DNA of 12,967 nt, from positions 1-12,967 of the forward strand of contig BRYA01000156.1 of assembly GCA_030267965.1 (NCBI GenBank). Direction: 5' to 3'. Within the stretch, counting starts at the first letter, position 1. Each line of letters begins with the position of its first letter. Shown here piece after piece: positions 1 to 12,967 of this stretch. The notes under the pieces are model-generated. The model was not told where the DNA came from. It saw only the letters and a program-made list of their open reading frames with translations, and did not search any database. This stretch comes from Triparma columacea (Eukaryota; Sar; Bolidophyceae; Parmales; Triparmaceae). A program made the position numbers and the translations under genes.

Positions 1-1879
1 GCAACCTGTTGGCCTCAACAAGCTGATTCTTTGCAAGGTAGTCAATTGCTTTATCCATCACTGCATTTTGAAGAAGGCCTGTAAAATGCAGATTGACGGT
101 CTGAATACGTGTCACTCTGCAGACATTTGGGGCAATCTCATTGAAGAAGTAGACACCTGTAGTCTCTGCTAGCACAAATCCTTCCTTACTGAGGTCCTTG
201 AAGCCTCCTCCAGGGCACTCTGTCAGTGGCACAAAAGCTAACATGTATGAAGTCCCTCCATTCTCAAGTTGGATTTCCTTCCACACGAACCAATTCTCAA
301 ATAGTCGATTGGTGGCGGCAGGGACCTTCTTACCTGCATGATAGTGCACACTTCTAGTTCCGTCGACATCCTTCCTGATTGTCCTTGGCAAGTTCTCTTC
401 TTTTTGGTAGTGTTTTAAAGACTTCTCCAATGTGTCAAGCAGAAATTGCTCTGCCAACATACCCTTTGCTGACTTGTCCACAGTGACCACAAAGGCTGCC
501 CAAACCTTGTCCTCCTCTCTCCACAGGAACTTATCAATGCCCTCCTTCAGTGTCCCCTTGACTCTCTTCCCCTTCGTGTGAAGTTCCTTCTCTAGCCTCC
601 CAACTCTCTCCAGCATTGCCTCCTCCTCTGTTGTCAGGTGCGGTGCTCTCGGCATGACCTCCTCCACAAAGTGTCTCTTCCTCCTCTCATCAATCACAGC
701 AGGCTGTCTGAACTCATCCATTACTTCTTTGAGAATTCCCTTCAATGAGGTATAGGCAGACTTGGCGTCGCTTTTCCCGCCACTTTTAAAACTAGGGCGC
801 GCAGGGCCCGCACTCTTGAAACTAGGGCGCGCACTTATGAAACTAGGGCGCGCACTCATGTAACTAGGGTGCACACTCTTTGAGCTCTTGTTTGTGCTAA
901 TGCCAACTTCCGATTTTGTCTCTGTTACCCTCTCCTCTGCCTTTAGAGTTCCCACCATGGTGACTGCAGTTTGTCCAAACTCAAAATCAGTGAAGGTGAG
1001 CTTGCCCTTAATGACACCTCGCTTGACAGTCTTGGTCTTTATTGACGCTAGAATTTCGACAAGCATAGCAGTGGCCTCATCAGAAAGGTCATCCTCATCA
1101 AGGGGTGCCAACTCCATAACGTTCGTCGATTCGTCAGGAGATATGACTTTGACGTCGAGGAAAAATTCCACAAACTTATTCCCGTTGCCGTAGTGCTGCC
1201 AGTAGACAAGTCTATGAATGACTCCTTCCTTTTCTTCATACTCCTGGAGGGTCTTCCTTCGGAACTTGCCCTGCTCACAATCGGTGAGGATATAGTCAAC
1301 GATCTTGTCGCGCTCGTCGTGGAATACACCAGCAATCTCCATAACTTTCACATCGACGCCGGTAGAGTTGTCTGTGAGGCCTTCAATGGCTCCTCGGTCA
1401 TCCAGAAGCTTGACAAGTTTGACTTGTTCGGGGCCAAGAGCTGTGTAATCGATATCTACGGGACCGCGTATTGCGGAGGGTGTGTGATTGGGGCTAGAGG
1501 GGGGCTCAGAGGCGAAGTAGGTCTTGCCGGCGTCATTCGCGACTCCATCTGCTTCAACCTCCAGCGCAGCTTGGTCAATCTCCTCATCAGTCTGTTTGGT
1601 GTCACCGACACTGACTGGGGACAGTTGGATCCCCTCGGGTATTTTTTCCTCCACATTGTCGGGGTCGTCAAGCTCGTCGGGGGGATCGTCGACGCGAGTA
1701 ACGTGTCCCTTCTCCATATCATTGTCATTGATCAACTCAATAACATCGTCAGGAGCACCAACAATCTCTTCGTTTACTTTGCTCTCAACGTCGACATTTT
1801 TTTCTTGATCAGTGGGGCCCCTCTTGTCGTCGTTTACGGCGATGACTTGGTCGTCCTCCTGCTTGGGACTAACATTCAT
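1..1879 (-). CDS. START-like (StARkin) domain protein, partial, runs off the left edge
   Basis: Reading the complement from 1879 down to 1 gives 626 codons with no stop, so the C-terminus lies outside the window. Residues 1-145 are acidic and low in complexity (many D, E, V), probably disordered. Residues 175-320 are a folded-looking segment (IHRLVYWQHY at 221-230) that may be a degenerate first START-like unit. Residues 335-366 hold a short tandem repeat. Residues 395-445 are charged and helical, likely coiled coil. Residues 458-626 look START-like: KVWAAFVV at 458-465, RSVHYHAGKKVPAATNRLFE at 509-528, FVWKEI at 531-536. START domains bind lipids in a helix-grip pocket; the ligand here cannot be told. 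No signal peptide or membrane segment is visible, so a cytosolic protein is inferred. The start is the first Met in the frame. The frame stays open without a Met to about 2104, so a further upstream exon cannot be excluded. The next gene upstream, on the same strand, also carries a START-like domain. Confidence 0.75.
   Translation of the reverse strand, partial: MNVSPKQEDDQVIAVNDDKRGPTDQEKNVDVESKVNEEIVGAPDDVIELINDNDMEKGHVTRVDDPPDELDDPDNVEEKIPEGIQLSPVSVGDTKQTDEEIDQAALEVEADGVANDAGKTYFASEPPSSPNHTPSAIRGPVDIDYTALGPEQVKLVKLLDDRGAIEGLTDNSTGVDVKVMEIAGVFHDERDKIVDYILTDCEQGKFRRKTLQEYEEKEGVIHRLVYWQHYGNGNKFVEFFLDVKVISPDESTNVMELAPLDEDDLSDEATAMLVEILASIKTKTVKRGVIKGKLTFTDFEFGQTAVTMVGTLKAEERVTETKSEVGISTNKSSKSVHPSYMSARPSFISARPSFKSAGPARPSFKSGGKSDAKSAYTSLKGILKEVMDEFRQPAVIDERRKRHFVEEVMPRAPHLTTEEEAMLERVGRLEKELHTKGKRVKGTLKEGIDKFLWREEDKVWAAFVVTVDKSAKGMLAEQFLLDTLEKSLKHYQKEENLPRTIRKDVDGTRSVHYHAGKKVPAATNRLFENWFVWKEIQLENGGTSYMLAFVPLTECPGGGFKDLSKEGFVLAETTGVYFFNEIAPNVCRVTRIQTVNLHFTGLLQNAVMDKAIDYLAKNQLVEANRL
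782..877 (-). repeat. In-frame tandem 21-nt repeat coding SARPSF(K/I)
   Basis: Inside the START-like gene, residues 335-366 contain four copies of a seven-residue unit of the type S-A-R-P-S-F-K. The first copy is diverged (VHPSYMS). The last is separated from the third by three extra residues (AGP). At DNA level the plus strand repeats aaactagggcgcgcact about every 21 nt, except for the spacer. The unit is basic and rich in Ser and Pro, unlike the acidic N-terminus, and probably forms a flexible linker. Its function is unknown. Confidence 0.8.
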
Positions 1880-2779: not shown

Positions 2780-5700
2780 TTACCGTCGCCCCCTCACGTC
2801 GCCATAACCCCCTTCTTCGTCCTCCTCTTCGATAACGACACCAACCTTCCTCCCCCCGCCAACTTCCACGTCTTCGTCTTCATCCTCCTCATCCTCCTCT
2901 TCTTCAATGCCCAGACTCATCCTCAAACTCATGCTATTCCTTCTACCCCTACTAGCCTTGTCTCCCAATTCCAGTGCCCTCTTCTCCTGTAAGGCGCTTG
3001 CTTTCCCTTCCAGCATGTCGTCGGGGATGCTTGCCAGGAAGAGGTCCGACCACCACAGTGGCTTCTCCTCCAGCCAGTCCAAGACGTTGTCTTGCACATA
3101 TGTCTTCACATCGTCTCTGAAGTGGGCGTAGCATGACTCGTGACGCATAATGGTCAACGAAAGTTTGATGTCAGGTTCCGTTTGTCCGTAGAATATCCTC
3201 TCAGACTGGTCCGCTGCTGTTTCCAAGGAGAAGAAAACGGAAACATGGCTGCGGTTAATGCTGAGGAAGAACGACACGAAGAATATCGCGAGGATACCAT
3301 TGGAGGCGACTACAAAGGGCCAGACCACCTCACCATTAAGTCCTCCACCACTCCCTCCGCCAAGATACACGGCCGCGACAACAAAAGTTGCGCATTGGTT
3401 GAATATGAGATTTCCAGTGAATCCCGCACCGCCCATCATAAAAGGGAAAATTGCGAGTAGACATGCTGTGAAATCCACAACTAATTTACCAACAGTGTGC
3501 AAGATGATAGACAGGAGAAACGGGTAGTTTCCGGAGTAGAAGTCACCTCTCCTGAGAAACTTGCGTGCCGAGTACAGCAGCGCCGGGATTGCGAAATATA
3601 GGACAAGAACCACAAAGCCCATCTTCCACAGAAGAATCACATTGAAGATTTGGGATGCCATCGTACACGCTGATATACCCATCATGAGTACAAAGACAAG
3701 AATTCGGTTCTGGTCTGGAATCATTCCACGCGTCTTGGGGTCTTCCCGCCTCGACTTAGGGTGCACGTCCGCATCATATGTGAGTGACTGCACCGTGAAG
3801 GTAGTGGCCATTATTGACATCGTGAGGGACAATGGAGAGGTAAACGAAACTGCTTTGCCGTCGCTGATGCGCCCGACGATAAATGTCGCCTGGACGATGG
3901 CACTGGGGATTGCCTCCGTGAATGTCTGAGAGGGAGTTTGTGACAGGTCAGTTAAAAGGCGGCGAAGGGTTTTGATGATGGGTGTTTTGTGGGGACAAAG
4001 GGACTCACCTCCATGAGCTTAGTTATCAGCATCTCGCTATACGGAGGGAGTTTCTCGTAGAATTCCTGCTCCCCTCTTATCACCCGGACTGCGTCTTGTG
4101 CGGGTTTGAGGCAGAGGATGGTGAGGAGCATATCCCATGCCATCAACCTCGGTCGCTTGCGCCTCTGCAAGAACACGATGAAAAGTTGGAAGATGATATT
4201 AAGCACAAGCAAGATCAATATTGCCCGTGCCTTGATATTCTCGCCAGCAGCAAAGAGTTCAGTGACAATAAATACGTCGGAGCCCATATCGAGGACGGAG
4301 AAAGTAGCGCCCAGGAAGACACGGAATTTCAGGCCAAAGTCGGCAGTAGCGAGCTTTTTACGCGTGACTACTTCAAGAAAGGGTCGAAAGAAGGAATGCC
4401 TTTCGTCGAGCTCCCGCATGCTGGGGAATGTCAAAATGAACTCATCCACCGCAGCAGCAGCGGTGAGGTTGCCGATAATTAGGGAGCTCATTGTCTTGCC
4501 AATCTTACGTCCATCAGCCTCAGTGATGTCCGCCAGCGGCTTGTCCACCTTACATGGTGGTGCAAGTCGATTCCTCAGTATATTAACCAGCATAGGCGCG
4601 AATGCCCTATACCTCCCATGGAGTTCCCTCAGAGCACGATTTTTCTCCATCATCGCCGTTACTGCTAGCCGCCCCATTGCCTGTCTATTGCTCCTACTAC
4701 TCCCAACCATGAACGCGTCCATCGAGTCCATCAGCATCGTGCCCATTGCGGTGCCGTCTTCAACGTCAAGCTCATCAAGCTTCCGGAGGTTTTGGAAATA
4801 CCGCTGCACCTGGCTCACCGCTCGCACTGTCATGGGCCTGCACATTTTCTCATTCTCCATCACAACCGATTGTGTGTTGAAGTCCATCTGAGTATACAGC
4901 TCGATGGTGGTTTTCTGTTGCCCGACCGTCTTGTTCCGGCCAAGCTCCATCTGTCGTTTCGAGATTCTCTCTGCCTTGATTCGAAACACCATCGTGTTAC
5001 TTGCTCGCACTCGATCCTCCTCCTCTGGTGCATTGGGGCATCTAGTGGGGAGCACAACATACAAAATATCGCCTTTGCCATCCAACCTGCTGCAGGTTTG
5101 TCTACTGACGACAGTGCGATCGCGGAACCTGCCAGTAGGGATTCGATATGTCGACAGCGTTGTTATCGAACGCGTCGCCCGCATTTCCTCCCCCTCTTGT
5201 TCGACTTTGAAGTGGTCGCGCACCATCACATCGTTTTCGGCTGCCTTGCTGAAGTAGGCCGAGTCAAAGTCGTGAAGGAAGCACGCAACGTCGATTGGGC
5301 TCGCTCGTACCTTGACAGTGGCCTTGAAGGTCTTTCTCCCACCGTCCCAAGCGCAACTCTCCAATTCTACTAACCCATTGCTCTGCTCGAGAGGCTCCAT
5401 CCGAGGGTCCGCATCAATTACCAGCATTCTCCCTCTCTGCAGGGCATCCCTCTCCTCGTCAGTCTCGTCGCTGTCGCCTTGGTCTATATGGTTGAAGAGG
5501 CGCTCTCTGATCTCACCCCTAGAAGTAGCGTCACACAACCGCGCTTCCTCTTCCTTATCTCCACTTGACCCTTTGGTGTCCTCTTCACCACCGCCCCAGT
5601 GAGAGACTCGGCTGCCCTTGTGCCCCTGCTTGCGAGTGTTACCTACCACGGACGCTGTCGTCTGGAACGTTGATGCGGTGGACCCGCCGATCCTGCGAGC

Positions 5701-6830
5701 GTTACGTTTGCGGCGGCCAAATACGAGGCCCCGCGCCTGCTTTTGTAGCTCAGGATCAAAGTATAGATTCACGATTGGATTGAATGTTGTGCAGGCGACG
5801 GTGAGGGTAACGAAAGAGAAGAACCTGAGCGGGCGCTCAATGGCCGATGTGTTAGATTTGACGTGAATCTTCTTCGCTCTCATCATCGCTCATTGACTTA
5901 CATGGGAGGCCAATAGCTGCTGCCAACTCCAAAGGGAAGTGAGATGAAGTACATTGCACAGATCGTCCAGCAAGCTAGAAAGAGCACTGTGACGGAAATC
6001 GCGAACCGAGTAGCCCTCTTCTCGGTCTGCACGGCTGTCTTTGTTGTGCTTCCTGTGCTCGAGGATGCAAGGAGGACACGGATGATCTTGAGGGACTTGA
6101 AGGAGGCGAATATCACAACGGAGAAACAAGAGGAGAAATACAGCATATTAGCAAGGGCGAACATGTCGTGCTTGAGTACGCCCTCGCCGCCGGTGGCGAA
6201 GCACAAGCCGTTGTTGGACTTTGGGGCGTAGTGGCCGTATTCCGAGCCCGTGAGGACGGGCAGCAGCGCGTGGAGTAAGAGTCCAGGGGCGACGACGTCT
6301 GCGTGTGCGTGAAGGAGTAAGTTGGGGTTGAGCGGTGGAGGAACGAGGAAGGAGGTTCGTGACTTACATTTGAAGATCCTCCAATGTGGGGCAACGCTGT
6401 TCTTGCCGGCGATACGAGTCAAAGAGTTGTCCCTGATCAAGCGAAGCCTATAATACCGCTCCCACACGAGCCCAGTGATAGCGCTGAACTGCAGGGTCGC
6501 CACGAAATGAATCGCCACACCGTTGAGCTGGCACACAGCAAAGCTTCGAACTTGCCGTTGCTGCAGGTTGAGAGCAGTAGCGGAAAAGAATACGAAGAAA
6601 AATGCCAAGTCAACCCAACACTGAAGCCGCTGCCCGTGACGCTGTGCACGATTGACACGACCACCTCTACGGTAGAAGCAAAGGAGGAGGAGAGACGTGA
6701 GCCCAAACCCCAGCAGGTACAGGCACAGCTCAAGGGACGTGAATCCCTGAGTTGTAGGAGTCATGAGAGGAGGAAGCGGGTGAGTCGAGTTGTTCCAGTT
6801 GTAGCCGTAGAGATCGGCATAGGAGGCCAT
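2780..6830 (-). CDS. Receptor fusion: class A-like GPCR, START-like domain, XK-like multi-helix module (4 exons)
   Basis: Exons 6830-6368, 6298-5902, 5824-4009 and 3925-2780 join in frame to 1273 residues; an in-frame TGA at 6888-6890 precedes the first ATG. Residues 1-320 form a seven-helix receptor. It has N-terminal sequons (NNST at 13-16) and seven hydrophobic segments. C100 at the top of helix 3 can pair with C187 in loop 2. E124-R125-Y126 sits at the DRY position, C264-W265 in helix 6, and NPIVNLY at 302-308 in helix 7, followed by an FDPELQKQ helix-8-like stretch. A basic linker (GRRKRNARR) leads to a disordered region, then a START-like domain at about 436-638. From about 786 on there are eight or so membrane segments. 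LDMGSD (798-803) and ETFTEAIPSAIVQ (892-904) resemble XK/XKR-family motifs. The tail holds an acidic run at about 1233-1248. Receptor identity is strong, START good, XK moderate. Ligand sensing coupled to lipid handling is inference. Confidence 0.85.
3926..4008 (-). other. Intron 3 of the receptor-fusion gene (83 nt, phase 0)
   Basis: The donor is GAG|GTGAGT and the acceptor is CCCTCTCAG|ACA. Reading through the intron meets a stop near 3952. Splicing joins E892 to TFTEAIPSAIVQ, which completes the conserved-looking motif across the junction and opens 31 further in-frame codons before the next long hydrophobic part. Confidence 0.85.
5825..5901 (-). other. Intron 2 of the receptor-fusion gene (77 nt, phase 2)
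   Basis: The donor is CCCAT|GTAAGT and the acceptor is CGCTCAG|GTTC. Retention gives an immediate TAA (5898-5900). Splicing rebuilds codon M287 and places receptor helix 7 with its NPIVNLY motif directly after helix 6, the order expected for a seven-helix receptor. Confidence 0.85.
6299..6367 (-). other. Intron 1 of the receptor-fusion gene (69 nt, phase 1)
   Basis: The donor is AAAT|GTAAGT and the acceptor is CACACGCAG|ACG. The intron is a multiple of three and has no stop, so an open frame runs through it. Removal turns a polar, Pro-rich 23-residue insertion into a clean helix 4 (HWRIFKYVVAPGLLLHALL). This is the main reason to call it an intron. Confidence 0.8.
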
Positions 6831-7527
6831 GATGGAGAGGGGCCTAGGTGAAAGGTTGTTGGGTCCGAGGCGATGAGTTTCAGGTTGTCAGTTGAGTTGT
6901 TGTTTTGAGGAAGTGGGCTGAGGAGTCGGGAGAGGACGGAGGAGGTAATGGACAAATGAGCGGGTGTAGGAATGCCTCTTACGGGACAGATATCATGCGC
7001 GAAACCAATCAGTGTTGTGGTAAGAAAATCGAAGGTGTTGGCGTACGTTTTGGATAGGATCGAGGTGTTGGCTGTTGACGAGGGTATTGCTAGGAGTTTA
7101 TGGACGTTATTACTACGGAGAGCCACGCACTCTTCAGCGTCGGTGGGGGGGGAGGAGGTAAGACTACGGATAGGCAGGAGAGCGGGGAACCCTGGGGGGG
7201 GGGAGAGGGGAGGGAGGGGGTGAAAGTTTTATTCGGAAAAACCACGACCAACTCCTGTCCTCCTGGGCTGGACTTTCGGATCTTTCTCCAGTTTGTCACA
7301 ACCGAACACAGAGTTCTCATAAATAGAGGTGCGTAAATACACTCATTCCGAAATTTTACAACATAAAACACCTCTCCCGTTACCCACCTCACCCCATTCA
7401 CCATCTCTAACACTCCCCAACCCCCCAAACAAACCTCCCAACCCCCCAACCCTCCCGGGCTTCCCGAAACCATATCTTCCTCATTTCACCTCCCCTCCCC
7501 CTCCCCCGTCCCGCCCTCCCTACCCAG
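6831..7527. promoter_or_regulatory. Divergent intergenic region between the receptor gene and the DUF285 gene
   Basis: This 697-base stretch must serve both genes. The half next to the receptor contains a possible 5'-UTR intron on the minus strand: GTAAGA ends near 6971 and a pyrimidine-rich TAG acceptor lies near 6844. No frame-compatible coding exon results, so I do not call one. The middle is G-rich on the plus strand (7144-7220). An ATAAATAG TATA-like word sits near 7319-7326, about 200 bases before the DUF285 ATG. The last 150 bases (7376-7527) are almost pure C/T and A/C on the plus strand, probably the leader of that gene. Confidence 0.4.
7194..7220 (+). repeat. G-run cluster able to form a quadruplex
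   Basis: The plus strand has a 10-base G run followed by GGGG, GGG and GGGGG, separated by one to three bases. Four or more runs of at least three G with loops this short satisfy the usual pattern for an intramolecular G-quadruplex. A second G run (7145-7152) lies 42 bases upstream. It sits in the shared upstream region of two divergent genes, so a regulatory effect is conceivable but unproven. Confidence 0.5.
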
Positions 7528-8025
7528 ATGGAATATGCAAACAACGAGACGTTGAAGGAAGCCGCGGCTGAGTGGTTGAGGGATAAGGAGAAGGCAGAGG
7601 AGAAGTATGGGCCGATTGAGGAGTGGGATGTCTCGAAGGTTACAAGTATGAAGGAGCTCTTTTTTGATGCCGATGACAAGGCTAAGGATTTCAATGAAGA
7701 CCTGAGTCAATGGAACGTTTCGAATGTCACGGATATGGAGGACATGTTTTATAACTGCCATTCTTTCAACTGTGACCTCTCTGAGTGGAACACATCGAAC
7801 TGCACGAATATGAGTGCCACGTTCTTTGCTTGCCATTCTTTCAACTGTGACCTCTCTGAGTGGAACACATCGAAGTGCACGAATACGAACGGCATGTTCT
7901 GGCATGCGACCTCTTTCAACTGTGATTTGTCTAAGTGGGACATGTCAAAGGTCGAAGACAAAGCCGACATGTTCACCAACGCAAAGCGTATGAAAGCGTC
8001 CCACAAGCCCAAGGGTGTAGAGTAA
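7528..8025 (+). CDS. BspA-like / DUF285 repeat protein
   Basis: This is a 165-residue intronless protein. After a charged helical start (ETLKEAAAEWLRDKEKAEEK, 7-26) it carries units of about 25 residues of the type F-N-x-D-L-S-x-W-x-x-S-x-x-T-x-M-x-x-M-F, at about 33-54 (partial), 55-79, 80-104, 105-129 and 130-154. This is the signature of the DUF285 (PF03382) group of BspA-like leucine-rich-repeat-related proteins, which are found in bacteria and expanded in some protists. The cellular role in algae is unknown; protein binding is the usual guess. No signal peptide or anchor is visible. The middle units swap the usual Val for Cys (SNCT, SKCT) and add further Cys, giving an unusual Cys ladder. 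The protein is short for the family. The ATG directly follows a CT-rich CCCAG that resembles a splice acceptor, so an upstream exon is possible. The one upstream exon I tried (7100-7157) is out of frame. Confidence 0.85.
   Translation: MEYANNETLKEAAAEWLRDKEKAEEKYGPIEEWDVSKVTSMKELFFDADDKAKDFNEDLSQWNVSNVTDMEDMFYNCHSFNCDLSEWNTSNCTNMSATFFACHSFNCDLSEWNTSKCTNTNGMFWHATSFNCDLSKWDMSKVEDKADMFTNAKRMKASHKPKGVE
7756..7905 (+). repeat. Two adjacent 75-nt units in the DUF285 gene, near-identical over 55 nt
   Basis: Positions 7756-7830 and 7831-7905 are consecutive units. Their first 44 bases are identical, then one base differs (c/g), then ten more are identical, after which they diverge. The next unit (7906 onward) keeps only the general pattern. 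Synonymous identity over this length points to a recent unit duplication or gene conversion rather than selection on the protein alone. Confidence 0.9.
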
Positions 8026-8547
8026 TACCAAGAAGGGAGGGTTGCAAGACGAAGTTAAAAACTCTAAAATCACATATGATTCAAACACGGAGGTGCCGCA
8101 TGTGTCACCGCATGAAGTCAACTCCTTTCCCAAAAACAACTTAGGACAAATTGATGCATTTTTTGTGATCAAACAATACAATCTCTTCACGTTTCATTAT
8201 TTTCATTGTTCCTGTTCCAAATGGCTTCCACATTTCACCAAATCTCCAATCCTTTCTCGTCCTACAACCTCGGTGAAGCGTTGCTTGTAGAAGCCTCCTT
8301 GTGAAAGTGAGCGTCGAGCAGGTTAGCCGATCGGCCACGAGCCTTGCCGACAATCCTCCCGACGAAGTAAGAAAGTGTGATCGCCCGTTGATGTAAGAGT
8401 TTGACGTTTGAGGCTGAAAGGTGCAACCCCGTCACTAGCAGCGACGAAAAAGGGCGTACCCTGACTGCTCCCGTTGTCTTCCTGCTCGCTCTCTCATCCC
8501 TGTTCCTCTTAAGTATCCCGTCGTGAAAGTAACTTCCTTTCTTTCCT
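8026..8547. other. Convergent intergenic region, nothing recognised
   Basis: This stretch lies between the 3' ends of the DUF285 gene (plus) and the flavoprotein gene (minus), so it should hold both transcript ends. No clear AATAAA, tRNA, repeat or credible coding frame was seen. Open frames here (for example 8141-8353 minus and 8042-8290 plus) lack recognisable protein features. A 10-bp palindrome GCCGATCGGC lies at 8326-8335. Confidence 0.4.
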
Positions 8548-9741
8548 TCACGTCATCTCCAGTACCTCCTCAGCCATCCCAACCTGTTCAATCCCAACCT
8601 TAATCAAGAACGCGCTCCCCCTCCCATAGCTCTTCATCCCTAGCACAACCATCCCCTTCTCCGGGTTCCCCAAAGTCCCCGGTCCTCCGCTGACCTGTTT
8701 CAGACAGTCCCCCCCTCCCCCTCCCGCCGCCATAAGGGACGCGGCTAGTTTCATAGGTCCCTCCGTAGCGTAGCATTGGTGCACCTGAAGCTCCCTCGTC
8801 ATTTCAAGATCCGGCCTGTACCCTACAGCCGAAACCACCTCGTCAACAGTAACCTTTTTGCCTCCTTTTAGAGTGACTACGATAGGTTCTGATCCCACGC
8901 AGCCTGTGGACGTTGAGGACATAGAAATAACCGAAGATCCTCCTTCGTGTGTAACCTTCCAAGTCCCCTTCCCCCCCTCTTTAATGATCTCCCTAGCAAG
9001 TTTATTAAGTCTATCCCTCATCGGTAGCGTATCATTCTCAACGTCCCTATATATCTCCTCCCCCAATCTCCTAGTCACCCATATAACCTCACCACCAACT
9101 CCCCCACAATTAGCTGAAAGGAGACGGTCGATGAATGTGATAGCGCTAGCCCCACTACCTACAACCATAACCACCTTCCCTCCTATAAACTTGCTCATAT
9201 CCTCCGGTATACCCTTAACAATCCTTCCACATAAACCCCTCTCACCAATGGCGGGCATACCACCGAGACCGAGGTTGTTAGGGTTACCCCATGTACCAGA
9301 GCAGTCTGCGATTCTTGAGAAGTTTAAGATCAACTCTGAACCGTCATTTCTTTGTAGGAGTGCGTTGAAATTTTGTGTGTTTCGGTTCGACATTGTAGAT
9401 TTTAGGAGGTTGGAACGGGAGAGTGATACTACAGTTGTTTCTGTTAGTTGTGTTACGCCTTTGTTATGGAGGTAAGTCCAGAGGGGGGAGAGGTAGGAGG
9501 ATATGTACTCTGAACCGAGAGGGTAGGATGACATGTCCAGGGTTAGGGAGGAGATCTGAAGACCCAAGGGACTTACGTTTAGAGACCAAGGTGAGAATAG
9601 CCGGACATGACCCCATTCTCTGACATTTCCTGCAAAGTTTGTGCTTCTTTCTACGATGGTGATCTCGTATTTGTCGACTAGGTGTATTGCGAGTTCTATA
9701 CCTATTGGCCCTGCGCCTATAATGAGTAGAGTAGGTTTCAT
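8548..9741 (-). CDS. FAD/NAD(P)-binding flavoprotein monooxygenase-like oxidoreductase
   Basis: This is a 397-residue intronless protein. It starts directly with a Rossmann fold: GAGPIG (9-14) binds FAD and E31 ends the second strand. A second dinucleotide fold, GSGASA (195-200) followed by WVTRR (221-225), fits NAD(P)H. SAVGYRP (304-310) is the late motif of such two-dinucleotide-fold flavoproteins. WGHVRLFSPW (43-52), CSGTWGNPNNLG (148-159), ATEGPMKLAA (325-334) and LGMKSYGR (367-374) match a bacterial group of class B-type monooxygenase-like proteins as I remember it, some of which sit in arsenic clusters. The substrate cannot be assigned. Length and motif order indicate an intact gene. 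No targeting peptide is seen, so it is probably cytosolic. Lack of introns in a window where two of the other four genes are clearly spliced, and the bacterial resemblance, suggest horizontal acquisition (inference). A glycine run (340-344) is a lineage-specific loop. Confidence 0.85.
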   Translation of the reverse strand: MKPTLLIIGAGPIGIELAIHLVDKYEITIVERSTNFAGNVREWGHVRLFSPWSLNVSPLGLQISSLTLDMSSYPLGSEYISSYLSPLWTYLHNKGVTQLTETTVVSLSRSNLLKSTMSNRNTQNFNALLQRNDGSELILNFSRIADCSGTWGNPNNLGLGGMPAIGERGLCGRIVKGIPEDMSKFIGGKVVMVVGSGASAITFIDRLLSANCGGVGGEVIWVTRRLGEEIYRDVENDTLPMRDRLNKLAREIIKEGGKGTWKVTHEGGSSVISMSSTSTGCVGSEPIVVTLKGGKKVTVDEVVSAVGYRPDLEMTRELQVHQCYATEGPMKLAASLMAAGGGGGDCLKQVSGGPGTLGNPEKGMVVLGMKSYGRGSAFLIKVGIEQVGMAEEVLEMT

Positions 9742-10452: not shown

Positions 10453-11621
10453 ATGGGAACACTCCTAGACAAACCAGTTACCGAGAAGCAGGACTCAGAG
10501 GAGGGTTCCGGGCACGGTCTAAAGTTCGGTGTCAGCTCCATGCAGGGTTGGAGGATCGACATGGAGGACAGCCACCGCATGGCCATCGACCTCGACTCCG
10601 CTCTCCATGGCCACAGCCTCTTCGCCGTGTTCGACGGTCACGGTGGTGCCTTCGCAGCAAAGTTTGCGGGGGAGAATATCGTACCCATCCTCAAGACCAT
10701 CCCACAGTATCTGCAGTACGTGAAGGTGGAGGAGGGGAAGAGGGGGGACAAGGAGAATGTCGAGCTACTAGAAGATGCACTCAAGGCGTGCTTCATAGAA
10801 ATCGACGAGGTGAGAAGAGAAGGCCCAAGGGAGGAGAGAGATTAAAGGAGAAGGAGAAGGAGAAGGAGAAGGATCACCCCACCACACCCCCTCCTCCACC
10901 TCTTATTAACCCCCCCCCCCCCACCCCCCCCACCCCTTAGGAAATGAAAAAGACTCCCGAGATGACAGAAAAGTCCGACCGTTCCGGTTGCACTGCAATC
11001 TGCGTAGTCATAACCCCCTCCCACATAATCTGCTCCAACGCCGGCGACTCCCGTTCCTGCTACCTGACCTCTTCAACCGTCGTCGCCTTATCCGACGACC
11101 ACAAGCCTTACAACCCCGGTGAAATGGCTAGGATAGAGGCAGGCGGTGGTTACGTATCCATGAAGCGCGTCGACGGTGACCTCGCGGTATCCAGGGCTTT
11201 AGGGGACTTCCAGTACAAGGACAAGGAGGGTTTACCGCCCCAAAAACAGAGGGTAACTGCCGACCCTGACGTCACGACGTACGAAAGGAAGAGGGGGAAG
11301 GATGAGTTTGTGGTCATCGCGTGCGACGGGATATGGGATGTTGCAACGAACGAGGAGTGCCTTGATATGGTTCAAGGGATACTCGACGAGGGGGAGACTA
11401 ACCCGCAGCTTGCGGCGGAGGAGATACTTGATCTGTGCCTGGAGAAAGGGAGCAGGGATAACATGACGGCGGCTGTTATTTGGTTCGAGGAGGGGGTTAA
11501 AATCAAAGAGGGAGAGGGGGGGAAGGGGGTTATGGGGAGGAGGGAGAAGAGGGAGAAGGAGAGGATTGAAAGAGAGGAAGAGGAAGCGAAGGCAAGAGGG
11601 GAAACGGGACAGGGGGAGTAA
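10453..11621 (+). CDS. PP2C (PPM) family protein serine/threonine phosphatase (2 exons)
   Basis: Exons 10453-10809 and 10941-11621 join in phase 0 to 345 residues. PPM phosphatases remove phosphate from Ser/Thr using two bound Mn/Mg ions. The family motifs appear in order: GWRIDMED (32-39), FAVFDGHGG (57-65, metal-binding D61), NAGDSRS (152-158), LSDDHKP (169-175), RVDGDLAVSRALGD (195-208), ADPDV (226-230), IACDGIWDV (245-253, metal D248) and SRDNMTA (290-296, metal D292). All expected metal ligands are present, so the enzyme should be active. The catalytic core is complete and of usual length. After about residue 300 comes a charged K/E/R-rich helix (318-345). No transmembrane segment or transit peptide is seen. 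HGLKFG (21-26) leads into the core as in fungal/plant PP2C. Substrate and pathway cannot be told from sequence. Confidence 0.95.
10810..10940 (+). other. Intron of the phosphatase gene (131 nt, phase 0) with purine and C-rich halves
   Basis: The donor is GACGAG|GTGAGA and the acceptor is CACCCCTTAG|GAA. Reading through gives a stop at 10843-10845. The first half is almost pure purine, including (AAGGAG) nearly five times at 10845-10873. The second half is C/T-rich with long C runs (about 10910-10932) before the acceptor. Confidence 0.9.
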
Positions 11622-11988: not shown

Positions 11989-12967
11989 ATGTACAAGCTA
12001 TTATCGCGTATTTCAATAGTCTCAAGCCTACTTCTCCTCCTAATAAGCCTAACCCTTCCACAGCTATCAAATTCCCTGTGTAATTCACTTCCTAATTCAA
12101 TCTTTCATTCACAAATGTCGTCGATGAGGTTTCACAATTCCTTTCTTAAACTACCAATACAATCACAACAAACAATCACTGCATACTTCGCTCCAACTAG
12201 ACTCTACAATACACGCCTGTACAATACCCGGGAGAAAGAACAAGACAAACAACAACATAATGAACAAGGACAAGAGAAGGGGAGGATCATGAGGGAAGGG
12301 ACTGAGCTGGAGGACACTTGCGGGTACTCAAACCCAGCGACGATTGCCAAGGTGAGCAAAGCGTATGTTGAGGGAAGGGGTAACCTAACCTTCTCTGGGC
12401 ACACAAGCCTCACACACACGAGCCTCACCTCTCTCCCAAACTAATACTAACACAATCCTCTCTCCCACACTCCCCCCCCCCCCCTCCAGAACCTAGATCT
12501 GATAACGTCCCACTGCGTTGCTCGTTCCTCTTCCTCCTCTCTCCTCGATTCACTTTCCTCCATCAGTACCTTAGCGTCGTCCCGCGTTTCCCTAATCCAG
12601 GAGCGTGACAATTTCCTCTCCCTCCGTAAGAAGCTATCCGCCGAGGTCGGTAAGGCCATGAAGGTTGGTGAGAAGGACAGGGGTGATACGCTAAAAGCAG
12701 AGGCCGCGAGTGCCGGGGAGAGTGCCGACGAGGCTTCAAAGAAGCTAGAGGAGGTAGACGACATTATCAACGGTCTAACGCCGACGATACCTAACCTCCT
12801 TAATGACCAAGTTCCACCGGGGAAATCGGAGGACGATAATGTTGTCGTATCAACGTGGGGTGACGTGGAAGCTCTGCCGAAGGAGGTAAGAAGATTGGAG
12901 GATGCATTTCACTGCTTTACCTCCCACCACACACACACACAAAACCCTTGGCCTCACACCCCCCTCC
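11989..12967 (+). CDS. Seryl-tRNA synthetase, organellar type, N-terminal part (runs off the right edge)
   Basis: Exons 11989-12351 and 12490-12885 join in phase 0 to 253 residues; a third intron begins at 12886 and the catalytic domain lies outside. SerRS charges tRNA-Ser. Exon 2 encodes the N-terminal tRNA-binding domain: NLDLI at the start, a long antiparallel coiled-coil arm (about 150-215, with IQERDNFLSLRKKLSAEVGK at 157-176), then the typical linker IPNLLNDQVPPGKSEDDNVV (221-240). Preceding it is a presequence of about 110 residues. Residues 1-23 look like a signal peptide (MYKLLSR, then SSLLLLLISLTL). Residues 24-85 are Ser/Asn-rich and poor in acidic residues, like a transit peptide, and include a doubled RLYNT. 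This bipartite form is typical of nuclear genes for complex plastids. Starting at M43 or M46 instead leaves a mitochondrial-like leader. Family call is strong; compartment is inferred. Confidence 0.9.
12352..12489 (+). other. Intron 1 of the seryl-tRNA synthetase gene (138 nt, phase 0)
   Basis: The donor is GCCAAG|GTGAGC and the acceptor is CCCCCTCCAG|AAC. A perfect TACTAAC branch-point word lies at 12445-12451, 38 bases before the acceptor, followed by a C-homopolymer tract. Splicing links the presequence exon to the conserved SerRS N-terminal domain. Reading through gives a stop at 12442-12444. Confidence 0.9.
12886..12967 (+). other. Intron 2 of the seryl-tRNA synthetase gene, 5' part only
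   Basis: The donor is AAGGAG|GTAAGA, directly after a conserved-looking part of the protein. The following sequence has low coding character (CACACA run, C-rich). No acceptor is visible before the window ends. Confidence 0.75.

Follow-up and report, generated by a model that had tools for sequence, protein, structure and literature searches.

GPCR-bigrams, in which a seven-helix receptor and an accessory domain share one protein, are known from oomycetes and some protists as GPCR-PIPK, GPCR-INPP, GPCR-AC, GPCR-PDE, GPCR-TKL and AP-GPCR, the accessories being kinases, phosphatases, cyclases, phosphodiesterases and proteases (PMC5784254; PMC6033456). Another combination occurs in GPR155/LYCHOS, which binds cholesterol and carries a transporter-like membrane domain together with a 7TM part in one chain (PMC12716839). 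Animal XK works together with VPS13A, a lipid-transfer protein (PMC9436381); in XKR8 the cytosolic tail keeps the protein shut, and cleavage of this tail by caspase, or its phosphorylation, acts as the switch (PMC10938166). In the Parmales, START proteins are enriched and are combined with transporters, kinases and other domains (PMC10328945).

The window analyzed here is the whole 12,967-bp stretch of a Triparma columacea contig. On its minus strand, from 6830 to 2780, lies a gene of four exons which, after removal of three GT-AG introns, encodes 1273 residues, the stop codon ending at 2780 (Table 1). The encoded chain opens with a divergent class A-like seven-helix receptor (residues 1-320), continues with a START-like domain at about 436-640 and then carries an XK-like membrane module at about 780-1120. 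Its hydrophobicity profile displays seven segments within residues 35-305 and eight more from residue 735 onward. A sequence-only reading of the window had described one gene fusing these three parts; this observation was confirmed, and the coordinates and the three introns in one frame are as first given.

Table 1. Features of the window, with intron lengths compared to the paralogue on contig C147.
Feature	Positions	Strand	Content
Exon 1	6368-6830	-	Start codon, N-terminal tail with an NNS sequon at 13, TM1-TM3, ERY, to start of TM4
Intron 1	6299-6367	-	GT-AG, 69 bp, without in-frame stop; 67 bp in C147
Exon 2	5902-6298	-	TM4-TM6, CW264-265
Intron 2	5825-5901	-	GT-AG, 77 bp; 82 bp in C147
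Exon 3	4009-5824	-	TM7 with NPIVN, then linker and START-like domain; D799xxxD803 in the first membrane segments of the XK-like module
START-like domain	4765-5379	-	Residues 436-640, within exon 3
Intron 3	3926-4008	-	GT-AG, 83 bp; 79 bp in C147
Exon 4	2780-3925	-	Remainder of the XK-like module, then an acidic C-terminal tail and the stop
START-XK family gene, N-terminal part	2-1879	-	Separate from the fusion and cut by contig end; identity of 61-76% with N-terminal parts of the L011, L012, L013 and L017 frames
DUF285 open frame	7528-8022	+	184 bits; near-identical repeat units, by eye
FAD/NAD(P)-binding oxidoreductase-like frame	8548-9741	-	
PP2C phosphatase	10453-11618	+	In two frames, probably two exons
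Seryl-tRNA synthetase N-terminal domain	12451-12966	+	

Exon 3 by itself is an open frame of 605 codons that runs from TM7 across the START-like domain and reaches into the XK-like module, a length whose occurrence by chance at this base composition has a log10 of about -12.5. Since one exon thus holds TM7 together with the START-like domain and the beginning of the XK-like helices, the fusion has support beyond splicing, and the dependence on splicing is limited to TM1-TM6. Among the intron-2 acceptors listed, only that at 5825 preserves the frame at a normal intron length; the acceptor at 5879 would leave an intron of 23 bp, too short to be accepted.

When the assembly was searched with the receptor part, three fusion loci (the window, C147 and C347) and one distant receptor on C695 came up. 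The paralogue on C147 (80,943 bp) has all four exons in frame at 79-92% identity, and its introns, all GT..AG, differ in length from those of the window by 2, 5 and 4 bases. Introns 1, 2 and 3 are 91%, 66% and 90% identical between the two copies, so that introns 1 and 3 are no less identical than the exons, which limits the support that the paralogue provides. Gaps between the copies are multiples of three in exons 1-3; those of exon 4 (13 and 145) fall at its extreme 3' end, and the C147 protein finishes with MSG-stop in place of the YGDVRGRR-stop of the window. Neither copy has a stop in its exons before the 3' end. The third copy, on C347 (L009), contains the same segments, interrupted by an insertion of about 3.9 kb in exon 2 near residue 265, and one stop was reported in its exon 4 match. 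The insert (L009, about 5177-9041) holds no open frame longer than 182 residues between stops. The three loci share the same domain order at 5-21% DNA difference by segment, and exon 3 is open in all of them, so that TM7 is joined to the START-like domain and the start of the XK-like module in one exon at three loci, the receptor and accessory domain lying in one protein as in a GPCR-bigram.

Comparison of the window and C147 copies gave dS 0.557, dN 0.139 and dN/dS 0.25 for the receptor part, values that show purifying selection on it at the level of this pairwise comparison. Elsewhere dN/dS was 0.73 in the linker, 0.51 in the START-like domain, 0.50 in residues 641-780, 0.56 in the XK-like module and 0.21 in the tail. 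The dS values of the receptor (0.56) and of the START-like part (0.09) are six-fold apart, which suggests that gene conversion has perhaps taken place between the copies in part of exon 3. The distant receptor (L037, C695, 2157-3273, minus strand) belongs to class A, with a Pfam 7tm_1 score of 61.6 bits in its longer frame; it is matched by the receptor part of the fusion alone, and C695 yielded no START-XK match in the searches with exon 3 or exon 4.

The receptor part matches Pfam 7tm_1 over residues 74-305 with 27.0 bits (E 3.7e-6), and its C147 counterpart with 28.4 bits (E 1.4e-6); the match proposed for residues 1-320 was thus found, at scores that in both copies stay below the curated cut-off of 30.5. 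In a PDB search with the receptor, all 50 sequences at E<=1 were class A receptors or chimeras containing one (best E 0.0027). The seven hydrophobic segments, together with loop charges calculated from hand-set helix borders, fit an N-out/C-in topology, and the START-like domain would therefore be cytosolic; single-sequence structure models of window sequences had low pLDDT, 36 for the START-like part and 48 for the receptor, and show neither a seven-helix fold nor the helix-grip fold and lipid cavity of a START domain with confidence. All the residues highlighted by the sequence-only reading (C100, C187, ERY124-126, CW264-265 and NPIVNLY302-308) are present at their positions, and they agree unequally with class A. 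The two cysteines, which we take to be the C3.25-C45.50 pair, and the ERY of the E/DRY region conform to it. The CW belongs to a CWTI without the proline of CWxP, and NPIVN is not an NPxxY, since N306 occupies the tyrosine position (both from the PDB alignment). In the C147 receptor both cysteines are kept and ERF stands where the window has ERY.

The evidence for the other two parts comes from their relatives in this genome. Exon 3, used as the query, scored at least 72 places in the assembly and exon 4 at least 108 places on 100 contigs, receptor copies included in both counts. Of the 108 exon 4 matches, 93 lie in open frames of at least 1000 residues and 19 have one stop inside the match. 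To judge from these searches, the START-XK part is a member of a large family in this genome, which could not be seen from the window, and the fusion links a receptor to a single unit of this amplified family. The receptor-bearing form is represented by three copies, one of them interrupted. Its module is 26-29% identical to the 18 other modules of an alignment of 19 (A2), which are mutually 45-91% identical; the fusion therefore seems to be an old branch, or a fast one, rather than a recent capture. NCBIfam gave nothing relevant, and a scan of viral contigs with exon 3 confirmed no relative.

The XK-like module, placed at residues 786-1120 by the earlier reading, is supported through these relatives and not by the window protein itself, in which Pfam XK-related had no match. 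At E<=0.1 this profile matched 16 of the 19 A2 sequences, that of the window not being among them, and five of seven longer relatives passed its cut-off of 24.8 (L012, L016, L017, L018 and L019, with 28.2-33.4 bits; L007 and L011 failed). Hydrophobicity averaged over the 19 relatives reveals ten hydrophobic stretches in residues 727-1112. Residues D799 and D803 do not vary within A2, and they line up with the D-x3-D of the XK-related chain 7p14. In a PDB profile search with A2 this chain was the third of three weak hits (E 3.9), ranked after a T-cell receptor chain and a glucanase.

The START-like domain, which had been assigned to residues 436-638, is the most weakly supported of the three parts; Pfam START had no match in the window protein, and the assignment again stands through same-genome relatives. 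These were aligned as the domain preceding the XK part (A3), the repeat unit upstream of it (A4) and the next unit (A5). Profile comparison related A3 to A4 with 95.1% and A4 to A5 with 98.8%, and one A5 member reached 29.2 bits against START (cut-off 22), so that the START-like part is linked, via the A3-A4-A5 chain, to START domains scoring over the cut-off. Compared directly, A3 and A5 gave a weaker 79.7%. Pfam START matched none of the 19 A3 members at E<=1; at E<=0.1 it matched none of the 19 A2 members, one of eight in A4 and two of four in A5. Among the seven longer relatives, two passed the START cut-off (L007 and L017), three scored below it and two had no match. PDB profile searches with the START-like alignments returned no START structure and nothing relevant. 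Over the whole genome, 35 of 59 scored START candidates had E<=0.001, all 35 being over the cut-off, and on six contigs (C147, C620, C408, C166, C556 and C608) a START domain over the cut-off and an XK-like module apparently share one frame, as judged by equal frame length and nearness.

Genes with START repeats and an XK-like part lie at contig ends and read outward (100 contigs, e.g., L011, L012, L019 and L048). Exon 4 matches on the minus strand start less than 10 kb from the contig start in 50 of 52 cases, versus 0 of 56 on the plus strand; the plus-strand matches whose distance to the contig end was measurable all start within 8.5 kb of it (8/8). The gene adjoining the fusion downstream in the window is a further family member, without any Pfam match. 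Many contig ends in the assembly are capped by (TTAGGG)n arrays, with 130 array junctions: an array lies within 150 bp of the left end in 58 contigs, and a rightward array occurs on 62 contigs, being terminal in 10 of the 12 checked. The exceptions are C209 and C680, whose right-hand arrays are internal, and which were accordingly rejected as telomere-capped at both ends. Telomere repeats are found at both ends of C70 (75,484 bp), C71 (84,296 bp) and C75 (67,733 bp). The chromosomes may thus be very small, and the 37.9 Mb assembly may hold hundreds of them; a search of the accessible literature for Parmales telomeres found no paper. A telomere array and a START-XK match on the corresponding strand coincide on 14 left-array and 16 rightward-array contigs, and the nearby repeats oppose, for those contigs only, the explanation of the positions at contig ends as mere assembly breaks.

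The fusion resembles GPCR-bigrams in its 7TM receptor with an accessory domain, which in bigrams is often cytosolic and tied to lipid signaling; bigrams are, moreover, known in stramenopiles. It differs from them in that the accessories named in the accessible text on bigrams are catalytic, none being START or XK-like (PMC5784254; PMC6033456), whereas no catalytic domain exceeded its Pfam cut-off in the window protein, and in that it adds a second polytopic membrane module. It is similar to GPR155/LYCHOS in combining a transporter-like membrane domain with a 7TM part, but in that protein the transporter precedes the 7TM, the additional domain is DEP and not START, and the 7TM is likened to adhesion GPCRs rather than to class A (PMC12716839). 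Like the XK-VPS13A pair, it would couple an XK-family scramblase to a lipid-transfer protein, although XK and VPS13A are two separate proteins, with a bridge-type transfer protein and no receptor (PMC9436381). The combination of START with other domains is shared with the multidomain START proteins of Parmales, for which the accessible text names no receptor-START protein (PMC10328945). Searches for XK-related proteins combined with START, with and without a GPCR, and for receptor-START fusions, found no description of this order in the accessible literature. The earlier suggestion that the receptor-START-XK arrangement is undescribed holds within that scope. The fusion is most likely a GPCR-bigram of a new accessory class, with an accessory part that is not catalytic, and such a class is absent from the bigram lists in the accessible text of PMC5784254 and PMC6033456.

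The domain order, the single exon uniting TM7 with the lipid module, the conservation between paralogues and the selection on the receptor support, as properties of the sequence, the presence of receptor, START-like domain and XK-like module in one chain. We consider it probable that the product is a single polypeptide, in which an N-out rhodopsin-like receptor is followed by a START-like domain in the cytosol and by an XK-like module at the C terminus, together a GPCR-bigram with a lipid-handling output in cis. The START-like domain would load lipid at the cytosolic leaflet or present it there, the XK-like module, as a relative of the scramblase family, would equilibrate lipid between the leaflets, and receptor activation would change the START/XK-like activity in cis, the output being lipid handling and not a catalytic product. 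That an attached domain could control an XK-type module is plausible by analogy, given the coupling of XK to VPS13A and the closing of XKR8 by its cytosolic tail; we infer that an outside signal may control lipid movement in this way. That an external ligand at the 7TM directly switches START/XK-like lipid loading or leaflet asymmetry, with neither G protein nor second messenger, is a tentative extension that we think rather unlikely.

The chain may also be real while its receptor signals through G proteins as usual, or serves only to target the lipid module, with no gating in cis. G-alpha matches over the cut-off occur on six contigs (C46, C82, C763, C327, C165 and C252), leaving room therefore for ordinary G-protein signaling; the E/DRY region and the class A similarity are retained, and the mode of action of oomycete GPCR-bigrams is likewise undecided (PMC6033456). 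The absent CWxP proline and NPxxY tyrosine argue instead for an atypical switch, and we regard this explanation as rather unlikely. Two products would arise if an internal start in exon 3, e.g., Met420, gave a START-XK protein and the full chain were rare or non-functional, as might be expected from an in-frame methionine just ahead of the START-like domain and from a receptor at only 3 loci compared with at least 108 scored places for the XK part. Against this stand the sharing of one exon by TM7 and the START-like domain, the receptor dN/dS and the retention of all three introns in C147, which make two products improbable. An assembly chimera or a decaying relic is more improbable still, to the point of being hardly credible: the interrupted C347 copy with its exon 4 stop and the location of the window at a contig end could be so interpreted, but the order recurs at three diverged loci, exon 3 is open in each, and the window and C147 exons are intact up to the 3' end. 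For the preferred reading, that of one polypeptide with lipid handling in cis, such a natural union of receptor, lipid-binding-like domain and XK-like module in one chain would provide an example on which direct control of lipid movement by a signal could be tested.
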